Origin: Rubrivirga sp. SAORIC476
GTDB taxonomy: Bacteria; Bacteroidota; Rhodothermia; Rhodothermales; Rubricoccaceae
NCBI RefSeq assembly: GCF_002283555.1
Contig: NZ_MVOI01000003.1
Coordinates: forward strand, 1,476,798-1,540,797
Direction: 5' to 3'
DNA: 64,000 nt
Shown: positions 49,629-54,194 of the stretch, one piece after another
Position numbering within the stretch: position 1 is the stretch's first letter
Layout of the letters: every line of letters begins with the position of its first letter
The notes under the pieces: generated by a model
What the model saw: only the letters and a program-made list of their open reading frames with translations
Told to the model about the DNA's origin: nothing
Database searches by the model: none
Made by a program: the position numbers and the translations under genes

Positions 49629-49755
49629 CGTCGCACATTCCCCCAGGGTCCGCCGCGGCGGGGCATTCCAGACCGCCAATTCTGTGCAGAGGACGCGCCA
49701 GACGGCACCGACACGCCCTTCGCCCGTTGATCCCCTGCTTTCCCCACGCGCTCGC

Positions 49756-51003
49756 ATGGCCCGCCAGTTCGACGTCCCCGCCTTTTACCGGAGCCCCATC
49801 GTGACGCGCGTCAAGGCCGCGCGCACGGCGGCCGACCCCCGCAAGAAGGACCTCTCTCCGAGCGTGCTGGACTTCGGCCCGCTGCGCGTGAAGCTGGCCC
49901 GCCACTTCGGGTTCTGCTTCGGCGTCGAGAATGCCATCGAGATCGCGTACCGCGCCCTCGCCGAGAACCCCGACATGGCCGCGGCCGGACGGATCTTCCT
50001 CCTGTCGGAGATGATCCACAACCCGCACGTCAACGAGGACCTGCTGGCGCGGGGGATCCGCTTCCTGCGCACGACCTCGGGCGAGCCCCTCCTGCCACTC
50101 GACACGCTCACCCCCGGCGACCTCGTCATCGTGCCAGCCTTCGGCGCCCCCACCGAGGTCCTGGACGACCTCTCGTCGCGGGGCGTGGACGTGCAGGCCT
50201 ACGACACCACCTGCCCGTTCGTCGTCCGCGTCTGGAAGAAGGGCGCGAGCATCGGCGCGAAGGGCTACACGGTGATCGTCCACGGCAAGCGGACGCACGA
50301 GGAGACGCGGGCCACGTTCAGCCGTGCCGCTGCGTCGGCGCCCGTGGTGGTCGTCCGCGACGAGGCCGAGACGGAGACCCTGGCGGCTGTCATCGAGGGC
50401 CGCGAGGACGCGGCGTTCTTCTGGGACCACTTCACGGGCAAGACCTCCGAGGGCTTCGACCCGGCCCGCGACCTCGCCCGCCTCGGCGTCGTCAACCAGA
50501 CCACCATGCTGGCCTCTGAGACGGCCGCCATCGCCGAGCGCATCCGCCAGGCCGTCGTCACGCGTGACGGCGACGATGCGAACATCGCCGACACGTCGGA
50601 CACGCTCTGCTACGCGACCAAGGAGAACCAGGACGCCACTGAGGCCCTCATCGCGTCCGGCGCCGACGTGGCGATCGTGGTCGGCGGTTACAACTCGTCC
50701 AACACGTCGCACCTCGTGGAGCTCTGCGAGGACGCGGGCCTGCCCACCTACTTCGTCTCGGACGCCGACCAACTCGTCTCGCCGGGCCTCATCCGCCACT
50801 TCGACTGGCGCACCAAGACGCCCCGCGAGACGGCCGACTGGCTGCCCGAGGTGGACGGGCGGCCCCTCGACGTGATCCTGACGGCGGGCGCCTCGTGCCC
50901 GGACGCACTCCTGGACGCGGTCATCCAGACGCTGTTGTCGTGGACACCGAGCACGCGGCCCGTCGACGAAGCGCTGGCACCGTTCGAGGCCGCGCCGGCC
51001 TGA
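49756..51003 (+). CDS. ispH: 4-hydroxy-3-methylbut-2-enyl diphosphate reductase (IspH)
   Basis: The last step of the MEP isoprenoid pathway, giving IPP and DMAPP. 415 residues, the longer type shared with Bacteroidota, cyanobacteria and plants. Cysteines that hold the Fe-S cluster lie in HFGFCFGVENAIEIAYRA, YDTTCPFVVRVWKK and TSDTLCYATKENQDA. HNPHVNEDLL and HGKRTHEETRATF carry the substrate histidines. The start is ATG at 49756; the frame is open upstream without character. Confidence 0.95.
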   Translation: MARQFDVPAFYRSPIVTRVKAARTAADPRKKDLSPSVLDFGPLRVKLARHFGFCFGVENAIEIAYRALAENPDMAAAGRIFLLSEMIHNPHVNEDLLARGIRFLRTTSGEPLLPLDTLTPGDLVIVPAFGAPTEVLDDLSSRGVDVQAYDTTCPFVVRVWKKGASIGAKGYTVIVHGKRTHEETRATFSRAAASAPVVVVRDEAETETLAAVIEGREDAAFFWDHFTGKTSEGFDPARDLARLGVVNQTTMLASETAAIAERIRQAVVTRDGDDANIADTSDTLCYATKENQDATEALIASGADVAIVVGGYNSSNTSHLVELCEDAGLPTYFVSDADQLVSPGLIRHFDWRTKTPRETADWLPEVDGRPLDVILTAGASCPDALLDAVIQTLLSWTPSTRPVDEALAPFEAAPA

Positions 51004-51004
51004 G

Positions 51005-51280
51005 TCAGTTCCGGAGGGCTACCTCAGCCGCGAGCCCCTCCTCGCGGTGGCCGGCGCGCGAGACGGCGTAGAGCCGGAAGCCGCCCAGGTCCCACCACGG
51101 CCAGCCAGACGCCGAGGCGACCTGCTCCATCAGGAACGACACGTCTGACTGGACGGCCCAGTAGCCGCGGTCGCGCAGTTCGCGCTTGACGTCGAGCGTG
51201 GTGGTGGTTCCGGCCTCGGTGGCGGCCAGGAGGGCGGCGGCGCGGACGGCGGAGGCGGTGAGGCGGGAGAAGCGGGTCAT
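51005..51280 (-). CDS. Small protein next to the PARP gene, winged-helix-like
   Basis: 91 residues from the ATG at 51280 (MTRFSRLTASAVRAAALLAA). The body TTTTLDVKRELRDRGYWAVQ continues as SDVSFLMEQVASASGWPWWD and ends in LGGFRLYAVSRAGHREEGL. The pattern helix-helix-helix followed by a two-strand wing suggests a winged-helix DNA-binding module, but this is a visual guess. It lies 41 bases after the PARP gene and on the same strand, so the two are probably cotranscribed. No family was recognised. Confidence 0.6.
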   Translation of the reverse strand: MTRFSRLTASAVRAAALLAATEAGTTTTLDVKRELRDRGYWAVQSDVSFLMEQVASASGWPWWDLGGFRLYAVSRAGHREEGLAAEVALRN

Positions 51281-51321
51281 CTGGAGGGGGTGCAAAGGGA
51301 AGAGATGCGAGGCGAGGTCGT

Positions 51322-52560
51322 TCAGTCCGCCGCGACTTCGACGAGGTAGCGCGGGCAGGCCTGCGCCTCGCGGTAGACCACGATCTCGTCGTGGCGGAGC
51401 ATGGTCCCCGCGCGGGCGTGGAGCGAGTCCGGCGTGCCGAAGAGCCGGTGCTGGCCGAGACGGTCGGCGGTCAGTTCGTAGCACCACGCCTCGTGCTTGC
51501 GGACGACCAGCGGGGAGCCGACGTGCACGTCGTACAGCGCCAGGACCCCGCGGCTAGCGGCCTGATCGGTCCAGAAGGCACCCCGCAGCGAGGTGTAGCC
51601 GAGCGACTTCTGGAAGTCGGACGCGAAGTAGAGACCGTGGCCGAACATCTTGCCTGTGATGACGGCGCGCGCCGGGTTGAGCACGAGACCGGTCTCCAGG
51701 ATCGAGAGCCAGTTCTCGGACCGCGAGCCGTGCCACAGCAGCCGCGTCTGCTTGCGCCGCGCCGCCGCGACGTGGGTCTCGAACCGCGCCCGTTGCGCCG
51801 GGTGCACCACCTCGACGACGCTCTGGAGCCGGTCGGCGTGCACGCCCATCATCGAGCGGACGCGCGCCAGCACGGCCTCGTCGGTGACGCGCTGCAGGTC
51901 CACGCCGAGCGCGTCGAGCAACGTCGGGCGCGCGGCCTCGCCGCCCAATCGGACGCGCTGGGCCATCCGGTCCAGGGCCTCCTGCTCGGCGTCGAGCACG
52001 TCGGCCAGGTTCTCGGGATCGAGGGCCTGCCCGAGCAGGTGCTCGCGGACGTTGCCCATCTTGCGCGGGATCGTCCGGTAGAGGTCGAGCAGGTGAGCAT
52101 CGAAGGCCGCGACCAGGTCGGGCTGGTCGGCGGGCGGACCGGTGAGGCGACCGGCTAGGTCGGCCAGGGCGTCGAGGTGGGTCTGCGCCTCCGTCACCTG
52201 GCGCGCGCTGACGGCGTCCGGGGCGACGAGGTACTGGGCGCTCAGCGCGGCGTCGGCGGCGGCGCGGAGGCGGTCCACCAGCGCGGCCACGGCGGGGTCG
52301 TCGATGGCGAAGCCGCCGTCGCCCTCCTCGGCCGCGAGGGCCGTGATGTCGACGTAGCCCTTGCGGGTCTTCGCGCGGTAGGTGGCGTCCCACCGGCTGG
52401 CGTCGTAGGTGCGCTCCTGGAGGCGGGCGCCGATGCGGCCGAAGCGGGCGGTGAAGGTCCCATCGCCGTTCTCGGCCATCTCGTAGACCTTGTTGTTGTT
52501 CTCGCCCGTCACCATGACGAGGCGGACGGCGGGGCGGCGGTCGGGGGCGTGTGCGGACAT
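51322..52560 (-). CDS. Bacterial PARP: WGR domain plus ADP-ribosyltransferase
   Basis: 412 residues. WGR-like nucleic-acid domain at about 10-80 (NNKVYEMAENGDGTFTARFG; the name motif reads F40-G41-R42). A helical regulatory region (about 100-240; DLYRTIPRKMGNVREHLLG) precedes the catalytic domain (about 250-412). The triad of DNA-dependent eukaryotic PARPs is complete: His277 in LLWHGSRSENW, Tyr311 in GHGLYFASD, Glu392 in RHDEIVVYRE. It therefore should make poly(ADP-ribose). Such enzymes are rare in bacteria and are probably activated by broken DNA. The start is ATG at 52560. Confidence 0.93.
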   Translation of the reverse strand: MSAHAPDRRPAVRLVMVTGENNNKVYEMAENGDGTFTARFGRIGARLQERTYDASRWDATYRAKTRKGYVDITALAAEEGDGGFAIDDPAVAALVDRLRAAADAALSAQYLVAPDAVSARQVTEAQTHLDALADLAGRLTGPPADQPDLVAAFDAHLLDLYRTIPRKMGNVREHLLGQALDPENLADVLDAEQEALDRMAQRVRLGGEAARPTLLDALGVDLQRVTDEAVLARVRSMMGVHADRLQSVVEVVHPAQRARFETHVAAARRKQTRLLWHGSRSENWLSILETGLVLNPARAVITGKMFGHGLYFASDFQKSLGYTSLRGAFWTDQAASRGVLALYDVHVGSPLVVRKHEAWCYELTADRLGQHRLFGTPDSLHARAGTMLRHDEIVVYREAQACPRYLVEVAAD

Positions 52561-52668
52561 GATCTCGGGGGCTTGCGGATACGTGATGGACCCAAGATCC
52601 GGCGACGCAGTGACACCAAAATGTCACACTCTGCCCGACCCGTTCGCTTTTCCGCTTCCGGCCAGACT

Positions 52669-52709
52669 GGCTCCGCCTCGATGCGCCGACGAAGGCCCGA
52701 GGCGGAGCC
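52669..52709. repeat. 12-base-pair inverted repeat between PARP and M20 genes
   Basis: The arms GGCTCCGCCTCG (52669-52680) and CGAGGCGGAGCC (52698-52709) are perfect, with a 17-base loop. It lies between divergent genes, so it is not a simple terminator. It ends 57 bases before the -7 box of the M20 gene. Could be an operator for both genes. Confidence 0.6.
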
Positions 52710-52766
52710 GCCTGCCCGGCTGCGGAGCCCGGCGCGAGAACCCGGAGCCGGGGCGCCGCCCGCGCG

Positions 52767-52774
52767 TACGTTCC
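52767..52774 (+). promoter_or_regulatory. -7 box TACGTTCC of the M20 gene
   Basis: TACGTTCC is identical to the box before the 40373 gene. It lies 36 bases before the ATG at 52803, so the transcript has a leader of about 20-25 bases. Confidence 0.5.
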
Positions 52775-52802
52775 AGGCCTGCCCCTCTCCGACCGCTCTC
52801 TC

Positions 52803-54194
52803 ATGAACGCCGCTCTCCAGTTCGCCACCGACCACGCCGACGACGCCGTCGACCAGCTCAAAGACTGGCTCCGCATCCCGTCCATCTCGACGGACCCGGC
52901 CCGCAACACCGACACCCGCCGCGCGGCCCACTGGCTGGCCGACCACCTCCGTGCCATCGGCATGGAGACGGTCGAGGTGATGGAGACCGGCACGCCCGAC
53001 GCGCCCGGCCACCCGGTCGTCTACGCCGAGCACCACGTCTCCGACGACGCCCGGACGGTGCTCGTCTACGGCCACTACGACGTGCAGCCGCCGGACCCGC
53101 TGGAGTTGTGGGACCAGGACCCCTTCGAGCCCGTCGTCAGGGACGGCAACTTGGTCGCGCGCGGCTCGGCCGACGACAAGGGCCAGGCCTTCATGCACGT
53201 CAAGGCCGCCGAGGCGTACTTGAAGTCGGACGACGCCCTGCCGGTCAACCTCAAGATGATGATCGAGGGCGAGGAGGAGAACGGCAGCGCCCACCTCCCG
53301 GCGTGGCTCCGCGCCAACACCGACCGCCTCGCGGCCGACGTGGTGCTGGTCTCCGACACGTCGCTGTTCGCGCCCGGCGTGCCGTCGATCGCCTACGGCC
53401 TGCGCGGGCTGGCCTACGTCGAGGTGTCCCTGACGGGCCCGGCCAAGGACCTCCACTCGGGGGTCTACGGCGGCGGCGTCGAGAACCCGATCAACGCGCT
53501 CGCCGCGATGATCGCGGACCTCCACGACGACGACCATCGCGTCACCGTCGAGGGCTTCTACGACGACGTGCGCGACCTCGACGAGGATGAGCGCGAGGCG
53601 TACCGCGCGCTGCCGTTCGACGAGGCGGCGTGGAAGGAGGAGATCGGGGTCTCCGAGACGAAGACCGAGGCGGGCTTCTCGGTGCTCGAAGGCACGACCG
53701 GCCGGCCGACGCTCGACGTGAACGGCATCTGGGGCGGCTACACCGGCGAGGGCGCCAAGACCGTCCTCCCCTCCAAGGCGACCGCCAAGATCTCGTGCCG
53801 CCTCGTGGCCGATCAGACGCCGGGCGACATCACGGACAAGCTGCGCCGCCATTTCGAGGCTCACGTCCCGGACACCATGACGCTGACGTTCACCGACCTC
53901 CACGGCGGGCACGGCGTCATCGTCGACCGCGAGGCGCCCGCCATGCAGGCCGCCGCCGAGGCCATGGAAGGCGTCTTCGGCCAGACGCCCTTCTTCACCC
54001 GCGAGGGCGGCTCCATCCCCGTCGTCGCCGACTTCAAGGCCATCCTCGGGTTGGACACCGTCCTGATGGGCTTCGGCCTCGACTCGGACTCGATCCACTC
54101 GCCGAACGAGAAGTTCGGGCTCGACCGCTTCCACCAGGGCATCGAGGCGTCGATCCGGTTCCTCGACGCCTACGCCCGGCAGGAGGCCGCCTGA
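52803..54194 (+). CDS. M20-family dipeptidase
   Basis: A zinc peptidase of the carnosinase/PepV-like group, 463 residues. Metal ligands are shown by LVYGHYDVQPPDPLELWDQD (HxD), ARGSADDKGQAFMHVKAAEA (Asp), and MIEGEEENGSAHLPAWL (catalytic Glu-Glu). The dimerisation domain includes GLRGLAYVEVSLTGPAKDLH; the last His is in SDSIHSPNEKFGLD. It cleaves dipeptides or peptide-like compounds in the cytoplasm. The ATG at 52803 is clear. It has no close operon partner; the L,D-transpeptidase follows after 107 bases. Confidence 0.92.
   Translation: MNAALQFATDHADDAVDQLKDWLRIPSISTDPARNTDTRRAAHWLADHLRAIGMETVEVMETGTPDAPGHPVVYAEHHVSDDARTVLVYGHYDVQPPDPLELWDQDPFEPVVRDGNLVARGSADDKGQAFMHVKAAEAYLKSDDALPVNLKMMIEGEEENGSAHLPAWLRANTDRLAADVVLVSDTSLFAPGVPSIAYGLRGLAYVEVSLTGPAKDLHSGVYGGGVENPINALAAMIADLHDDDHRVTVEGFYDDVRDLDEDEREAYRALPFDEAAWKEEIGVSETKTEAGFSVLEGTTGRPTLDVNGIWGGYTGEGAKTVLPSKATAKISCRLVADQTPGDITDKLRRHFEAHVPDTMTLTFTDLHGGHGVIVDREAPAMQAAAEAMEGVFGQTPFFTREGGSIPVVADFKAILGLDTVLMGFGLDSDSIHSPNEKFGLDRFHQGIEASIRFLDAYARQEAA

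Follow-up and report, generated by a model that had tools for sequence, protein, structure and literature searches.

DNA-dependent PARPs such as human PARP1/2/3 and the Herpetosiphon aurantiacus PARP share a WGR domain, a helical domain and an ART domain with an H-Y-E triad, and the Herpetosiphon enzyme is a DNA-dependent poly(ADP-ribose) synthase (PMC4245714). In bacteria PARPs are rare, scattered and without an agreed role. Those of 'Clade 1' (Cytophagales/Clostridiales) have WGR plus a catalytic domain without a Pfam-defined PARP_reg, although models show a helical domain, and carry Y or F in place of the W of WGR (PMC5966428). In phages only scattered cases have been noted, in jumbo phages (PMC7824862) and in Cellulophaga phage phi4:1 (PMC4245714). 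ADP-ribosyltransferases encoded with a small partner and showing patchy distribution are known from the DarTG and DarT-NADAR toxin-antitoxin systems (PMC11125620), where the antitoxin usually reverses the mark (DarG macrodomain, NADAR). The pPIWI-RE three-gene systems of PIWI-RE, DinG helicase and REase genes, in which the Z domain lies N-terminal to the DinG helicase (PMC3702460), are of interest because of neighbouring genes described below.

Here we examined a PARP gene and its small neighbour in a 64,000-nt stretch of Rubrivirga sp. SAORIC476, hereafter the window. A preliminary description had reported a complete PARP with WGR domain and full triad, a 91-residue winged-helix-like protein of no recognised family encoded just downstream, and no macrodomain or glycohydrolase gene alongside, and we confirmed this observation, the last point as regards the macrodomain. 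Its interpretation was only partly supported; it had proposed a two-gene unit and listed a damage-triggered switch, a defence module and a toxin with its regulator without choosing among them, and while the unit and a predicted DNA-binding controller are supported and the module is placed in phage-conflict contexts, the evidence does not decide how the partner acts. The window PARP resembles the PARP1/2/3 type in its domains and triad, but it has no zinc fingers or BRCT and no Pfam PARP_reg match, and it is accompanied by the small winged-helix gene (here wH). The lack of a PARP_reg match despite a helical domain is the known state of the 'Clade 1' bacterial PARPs. We found no partner gene described in PMC5966428 or PMC4245714. 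Unlike in DarTG-type systems, the partner is a predicted winged helix and not a macrodomain or NADAR hydrolase, and the enzyme is PARP-type with WGR. The features are collected in the table below.

Features of the PARP-wH locus (positions in the window; residues are those of the encoded protein)
Feature	Coordinates	Strand	Details
IspH gene	49684-51003		convergent to the pair, stop at 51003
wH gene	51005-51280	-	91 aa, ATG; 41 nt after the PARP stop, ends 1 base from the IspH stop; predicted H1 9-19, H2 28-37, H3 44-58, wing strands 62-64 and 69-72
PARP gene	51322-52560	-	412 aa, ATG; WGR, helical domain, PARP catalytic domain
ART catalytic domain	51325-51921	-	residues 214-412; H277 at 51730-51732, Y311 at 51628-51630, E392 at 51385-51387
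Helical (regulatory-like) domain	51943-52296	-	residues 89-206; predicted helices 89-109, 119-138, 147-163, 171-174, 182-206
WGR domain	52348-52530	-	residues 11-71, FGRIG in place of WGR; predicted strands 11-18, 22-30, 35-42, 48-53, helix 54-66
Inverted repeat GTGACA-N6-TGTCAC, candidate operator	52610-52627		67 bp upstream of the PARP start
M20 dipeptidase gene	52803-54194		divergent from the pair

The Pfam search found the PARP catalytic domain (PF00644) above cut-off (E 3.9e-24), while WGR reached only 0.011, below cut-off. The WGR model was however above cut-off in the aligned relatives L004, L014, L114, L117, L184, L185 and L173 (numbers with L and G are our labels for loci and genome records, respectively). 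PHROG 23333 'polymerase' matched at 3.2e-43, and the phmmer alignment to PARP1 begins at residue 161. The AF2 model (pLDDT 85) shows a four-strand-plus-helix N-terminal domain, a helical domain and the ART fold, and the best Foldseek hits among solved structures were human PARP1 and PARP2 bound to DNA (E 1.9e-18), a whole-length match to these WGR-containing enzymes. H277 and E392 are invariant in 29 relatives and Y311 nearly so, hence the triad alignment is right. Short PARPs without the helical domain and with GYGIHF in place of GLYF, losing the triad tyrosine, were seen in L026 (654-1484) and L194 (1736-2566), still followed by an intact wH.

Searches with the small protein in Pfam, NCBIfam, PHROGs and PADLOC gave no match. 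A profile of the partner against PDB sequences gave only weak wHTH hits (DsvD 0.025, ArgR 0.07), and a mixed alignment of wH sequences was too divergent for a scan. The AF2 model is a confident winged helix with pLDDT about 94 over residues 10-70, and the nearest solved folds were the BlaI/MecI and Fur/Zur DNA-binding domains. The conserved core reads G-x-TTTLEVK-xx-LR-xx-GY-x-A-x-Q-xx-VS ... W ... NG-x-FR-x-Y. In family f4 (our label for a group of genomes) wH is under purifying selection (dN/dS 0.05-0.08), so it is a real gene, although selection between the window and the relative G004 looks relaxed (dN/dS 0.82).

Co-occurrence in relatives had been named beforehand as the point on which the pairing could fail, and the pair passed. 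Searching 60 relatives separately with each protein gave the same five genomes, with the genes adjacent in each. In 395 Bacteroidota genomes PARP above the family cut-off occurred in 6 and wH in 7; all 6 PARPs were followed by wH, and only one wH lacked a PARP. Weak PARP hits in family f27 and G366 were below cut-off and not counted. Further genome contigs added Saprospiraceae pairs (L014 and L016). The PARP of L015 ends 2 bases from its contig end, and the genome of the Cytophagales locus L012 has its partner domain elsewhere, at the start of a 304-aa protein with an unidentified remainder (L138, 823-1737). An apparent WGR domain after wH in this protein was not supported by Pfam.

In viral contigs the PARP scan returned at least 109 relatives. 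Scans with wH alone returned 16 loci (L117 and L118-L132), all with a PARP, six of them on contigs not among the loci returned by the PARP scan. In the phage collection a tblastn search with wH found one record, LR756500.1, which was also the top PARP hit. In the cultured Cellulophaga phage phi17:2 the hypothetical gp30 directly after the annotated PARP (gp31) is a wH (E 1.8e-13) and is followed by a DNA ligase; ligase genes near the pair were confirmed by Pfam in L119 and phi17:2. Searching 44 whole phage records found wH in 8, including two not seen near PARP before (G429 and G425), and in none of those in the clade that also holds the Clostridial PARPs. Nine phage records in PARP clade A gave no wH, though several are fragments. 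Unlinked co-occurrence in the phage records G429 and LR756500.1 and in the Cytophagales genome G418 argues for a functional tie beyond shared position. In the tree the Bacteroidota PARPs form one supported group (99/96) among phage PARPs. Pairwise distances of PARP and wH correlate over 34 pairs (Mantel r 0.898, 0 of 5000 permutations; Bacteroidota 0.894, phages 0.801); it should be noted that this correlation and the co-occurrence show co-inheritance, not physical interaction. Upstream of the phage pair of L124 (3208-6710) lie a weak macrodomain-like gene (0.0036), a NADAR gene (8.7e-49), a nucleoside deoxyribosyltransferase-like gene and a nicotinate/nicotinamide phosphoribosyltransferase-family gene, which is an apparent NAD/ADP-ribose cluster. 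In Lacrimispora (L017, 5534-8568) the related PARP has no wH, but lies between a macrodomain gene and an ARH gene.

All 43 pairs measured are on one strand. All 27 bacterial pairs have wH downstream with gaps of -4 to 241 nt, and two phage loci (L038 and L131) have it upstream. Of the 19 Spirosomaceae pairs described below, 16, along with L026, have gaps of -4 to 22 nt, which suggests translational coupling. No fused PARP-wH protein was seen in any fetched locus. At the site of the window pair, the IspH-M20 synteny persists without the pair in G001, G003, G005, G006 and G008, with other genes or none between, while G004 has the pair at the same place. The intergenic site (51003-52803 in the window, and loci L145-L152) thus holds different cargo in relatives, being the PARP-wH pair, a small ORF or a methyltransferase-like gene, and no remnants of the pair were found in the gaps of relatives without it.

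In a family (f48) that we infer to be Spirosomaceae from its gene content and the published Spirosoma/Fibrella PARPs, wH was found in 33 of 150 genomes. Of 28 loci read, 19 have PARP adjacent (two of these truncated, one cut by the contig end) and 9 do not. With 20 kb of context, 8 of 8 PARP-bearing loci have two Z genes by PARP-wH beside a divergent WYL regulator, in the order Z1-PARP-wH-Z2 in seven and with both Z genes upstream in one. The Z proteins match pPIWI_RE_Z (9.4e-17 and 1.4e-19) and the regulator matches WYL plus WCX. Here the two Z proteins stand alone, whereas Z is a domain of a larger protein in the pPIWI-RE systems. Of 12 PARP-less wH loci read, 9 keep Z and WYL next to wH, so PARP was probably lost in place while wH stayed. 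L216, L217, L197 and L200 have two wH copies close together, in L216 and L217 alternating with the Z genes and without PARP. A Z-domain model built from the Spirosomaceae proteins found nothing in the window, which has neither Z nor WYL of this kind, so the shared core is the pair.

The inverted repeat was first seen upstream of PARP in the f4 genomes and then found in the window and in G004. It is perfect in the window and G036 and has one mismatch in G004, G011 and G025, at -66 to -92 from PARP, and thereby occurs in all five genomes found with the pair in the window's order. Among about 2 Mb of fetched loci (235 loci, many overlapping) there are six distinct sites within one mismatch; five are these PARP promoters and the sixth is about 7 kb from its PARP. 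The palindrome is conserved only in two families of one order, and was absent from the Saprospiraceae loci L014 and L016 and from the Cytophagales locus L012. A search for a shared palindrome in the Spirosomaceae WYL-Z intergenic regions found none. In f4 the repeat is flanked by A and T runs and may also terminate the upstream transcript. As the window and G004 keep it without a T run, we do not regard it as only a terminator and treat it as a candidate operator, although this is not proven.

The absence of a macrodomain alongside the pair holds for the whole genome, which had no PF01661 match. The genome carries two ARH-family genes and one NADAR gene, all outside the window. Relatives without PARP also have ARH genes, so this is not a linked partner.

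Taken together, we suggest a two-gene ADP-ribosylation module used in DNA damage or phage conflict, a reading that remains tentative as a whole. The domain architecture and triad of the enzyme, the winged-helix fold as modelled, the pairing, gene order, co-inheritance and the palindrome come directly from our analysis, while DNA dependence, NAD+ use and polymer synthesis are inferred from related enzymes, and DNA binding by wH, its control of the operon and the role in damage or conflict are our own inference. In this view the enzyme would sense DNA ends or nicks through its WGR and helical domains and then use NAD+ to modify targets and itself. The wH protein would most likely bind the palindrome in the PARP promoter, probably as a dimer, to hold the operon low. 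When DNA is broken, for instance during phage attack, PARP activated on DNA could modify its DNA-bound partner and release it. Bacteroidota hold the module on the chromosome and large phages carry the same pair, where it would act on host or phage DNA transactions. We are nearly certain of the conserved unit, highly confident of the winged helix and fairly confident of a catalytically competent PARP, whereas regulation of the operon by wH is as likely as not, and a role of wH as direct cofactor or target of PARP, which does not exclude the former, is possible but less likely. The BlaI/Fur-like fold and the conserved palindrome speak for a controller, the Z and WYL neighbours for a conflict context, as WYL regulators co-localise with phage defence and respond to DNA damage (PMC9122601, PMC11804915), and the phage DNA ligases for break sensing. 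On the other hand, a WYL regulator is already present in Spirosomaceae, and a dedicated repressor would not need to persist without PARP as wH does in 9 of 28 loci there. The lack of wH in the large clade with Clostridial PARPs shows that it is not essential for PARP function in general.

The strongest rival, though we consider it doubtful, is that wH is a direct cofactor or principal target of PARP, bringing it to particular DNA or completing its activation, by functional analogy with HPF1 or with a zinc-finger module supplied in trans. The unlinked co-occurrence and strong co-variation favour this, as do the extra C-terminal parts of the phage partners, not needed by a simple repressor, and the fact that WGR is the only recognised DNA-binding domain in the bacterial and phage PARPs studied here. 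The promoter palindrome, however, points to regulation, wH survives alone in Spirosomaceae, the Clostridial clade (clade C) does without it, and no fusion was seen. Further, we speculate that wH chooses the DNA on which PARP fires, the two forming an undescribed two-protein machine shared and contested between Bacteroidota and their phages as a DNA-break-triggered conflict system; the evidence does not exclude this, but it seems unlikely.

A toxin-antitoxin pair, in which PARP would be toxic through NAD+ use or target modification and wH would be antitoxin and autorepressor, is less likely still. It would fit the asymmetry in bacteria, as no searched Bacteroidota genome with an intact contig has PARP without wH, while wH often remains where PARP is truncated (L194, L205 and L026) or gone, at the same place between the same Z and WYL genes, and it would fit the patchy presence at the IspH-M20 site. 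But wH is no hydrolase and the pair lacks an eraser activity, many phages keep a related PARP with no wH detected, and there was no sign of plasmid addiction, the plasmid PARPs found being distant relatives. Least likely seems an ordinary DNA-repair PARP in housekeeping single-strand-break signalling with an incidental regulator, for which the ligases beside the phage pairs and the activity of the Herpetosiphon enzyme speak, but against which stand the very patchy distribution within genus and family, the abundance in phages and the WYL and pPIWI_RE_Z neighbours.

Bacterial and a few phage PARPs are thus already published; what appears to be new is the partner, of which we found no description in the papers searched, although these left out most of the subscription literature and a prior description cannot be excluded. 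What PARPs do in bacteria and phages is an open question, and a partner family that tracks PARP across chromosomes and phages, found from either gene, turns this into a testable two-gene system, with the cultured Cellulophaga phages phi17:2 / phi4:1 as a laboratory handle. Large phages carry this PARP type far more often than the few published cases we read suggest, so phage-bacterium conflict is a plausible setting for its evolution.
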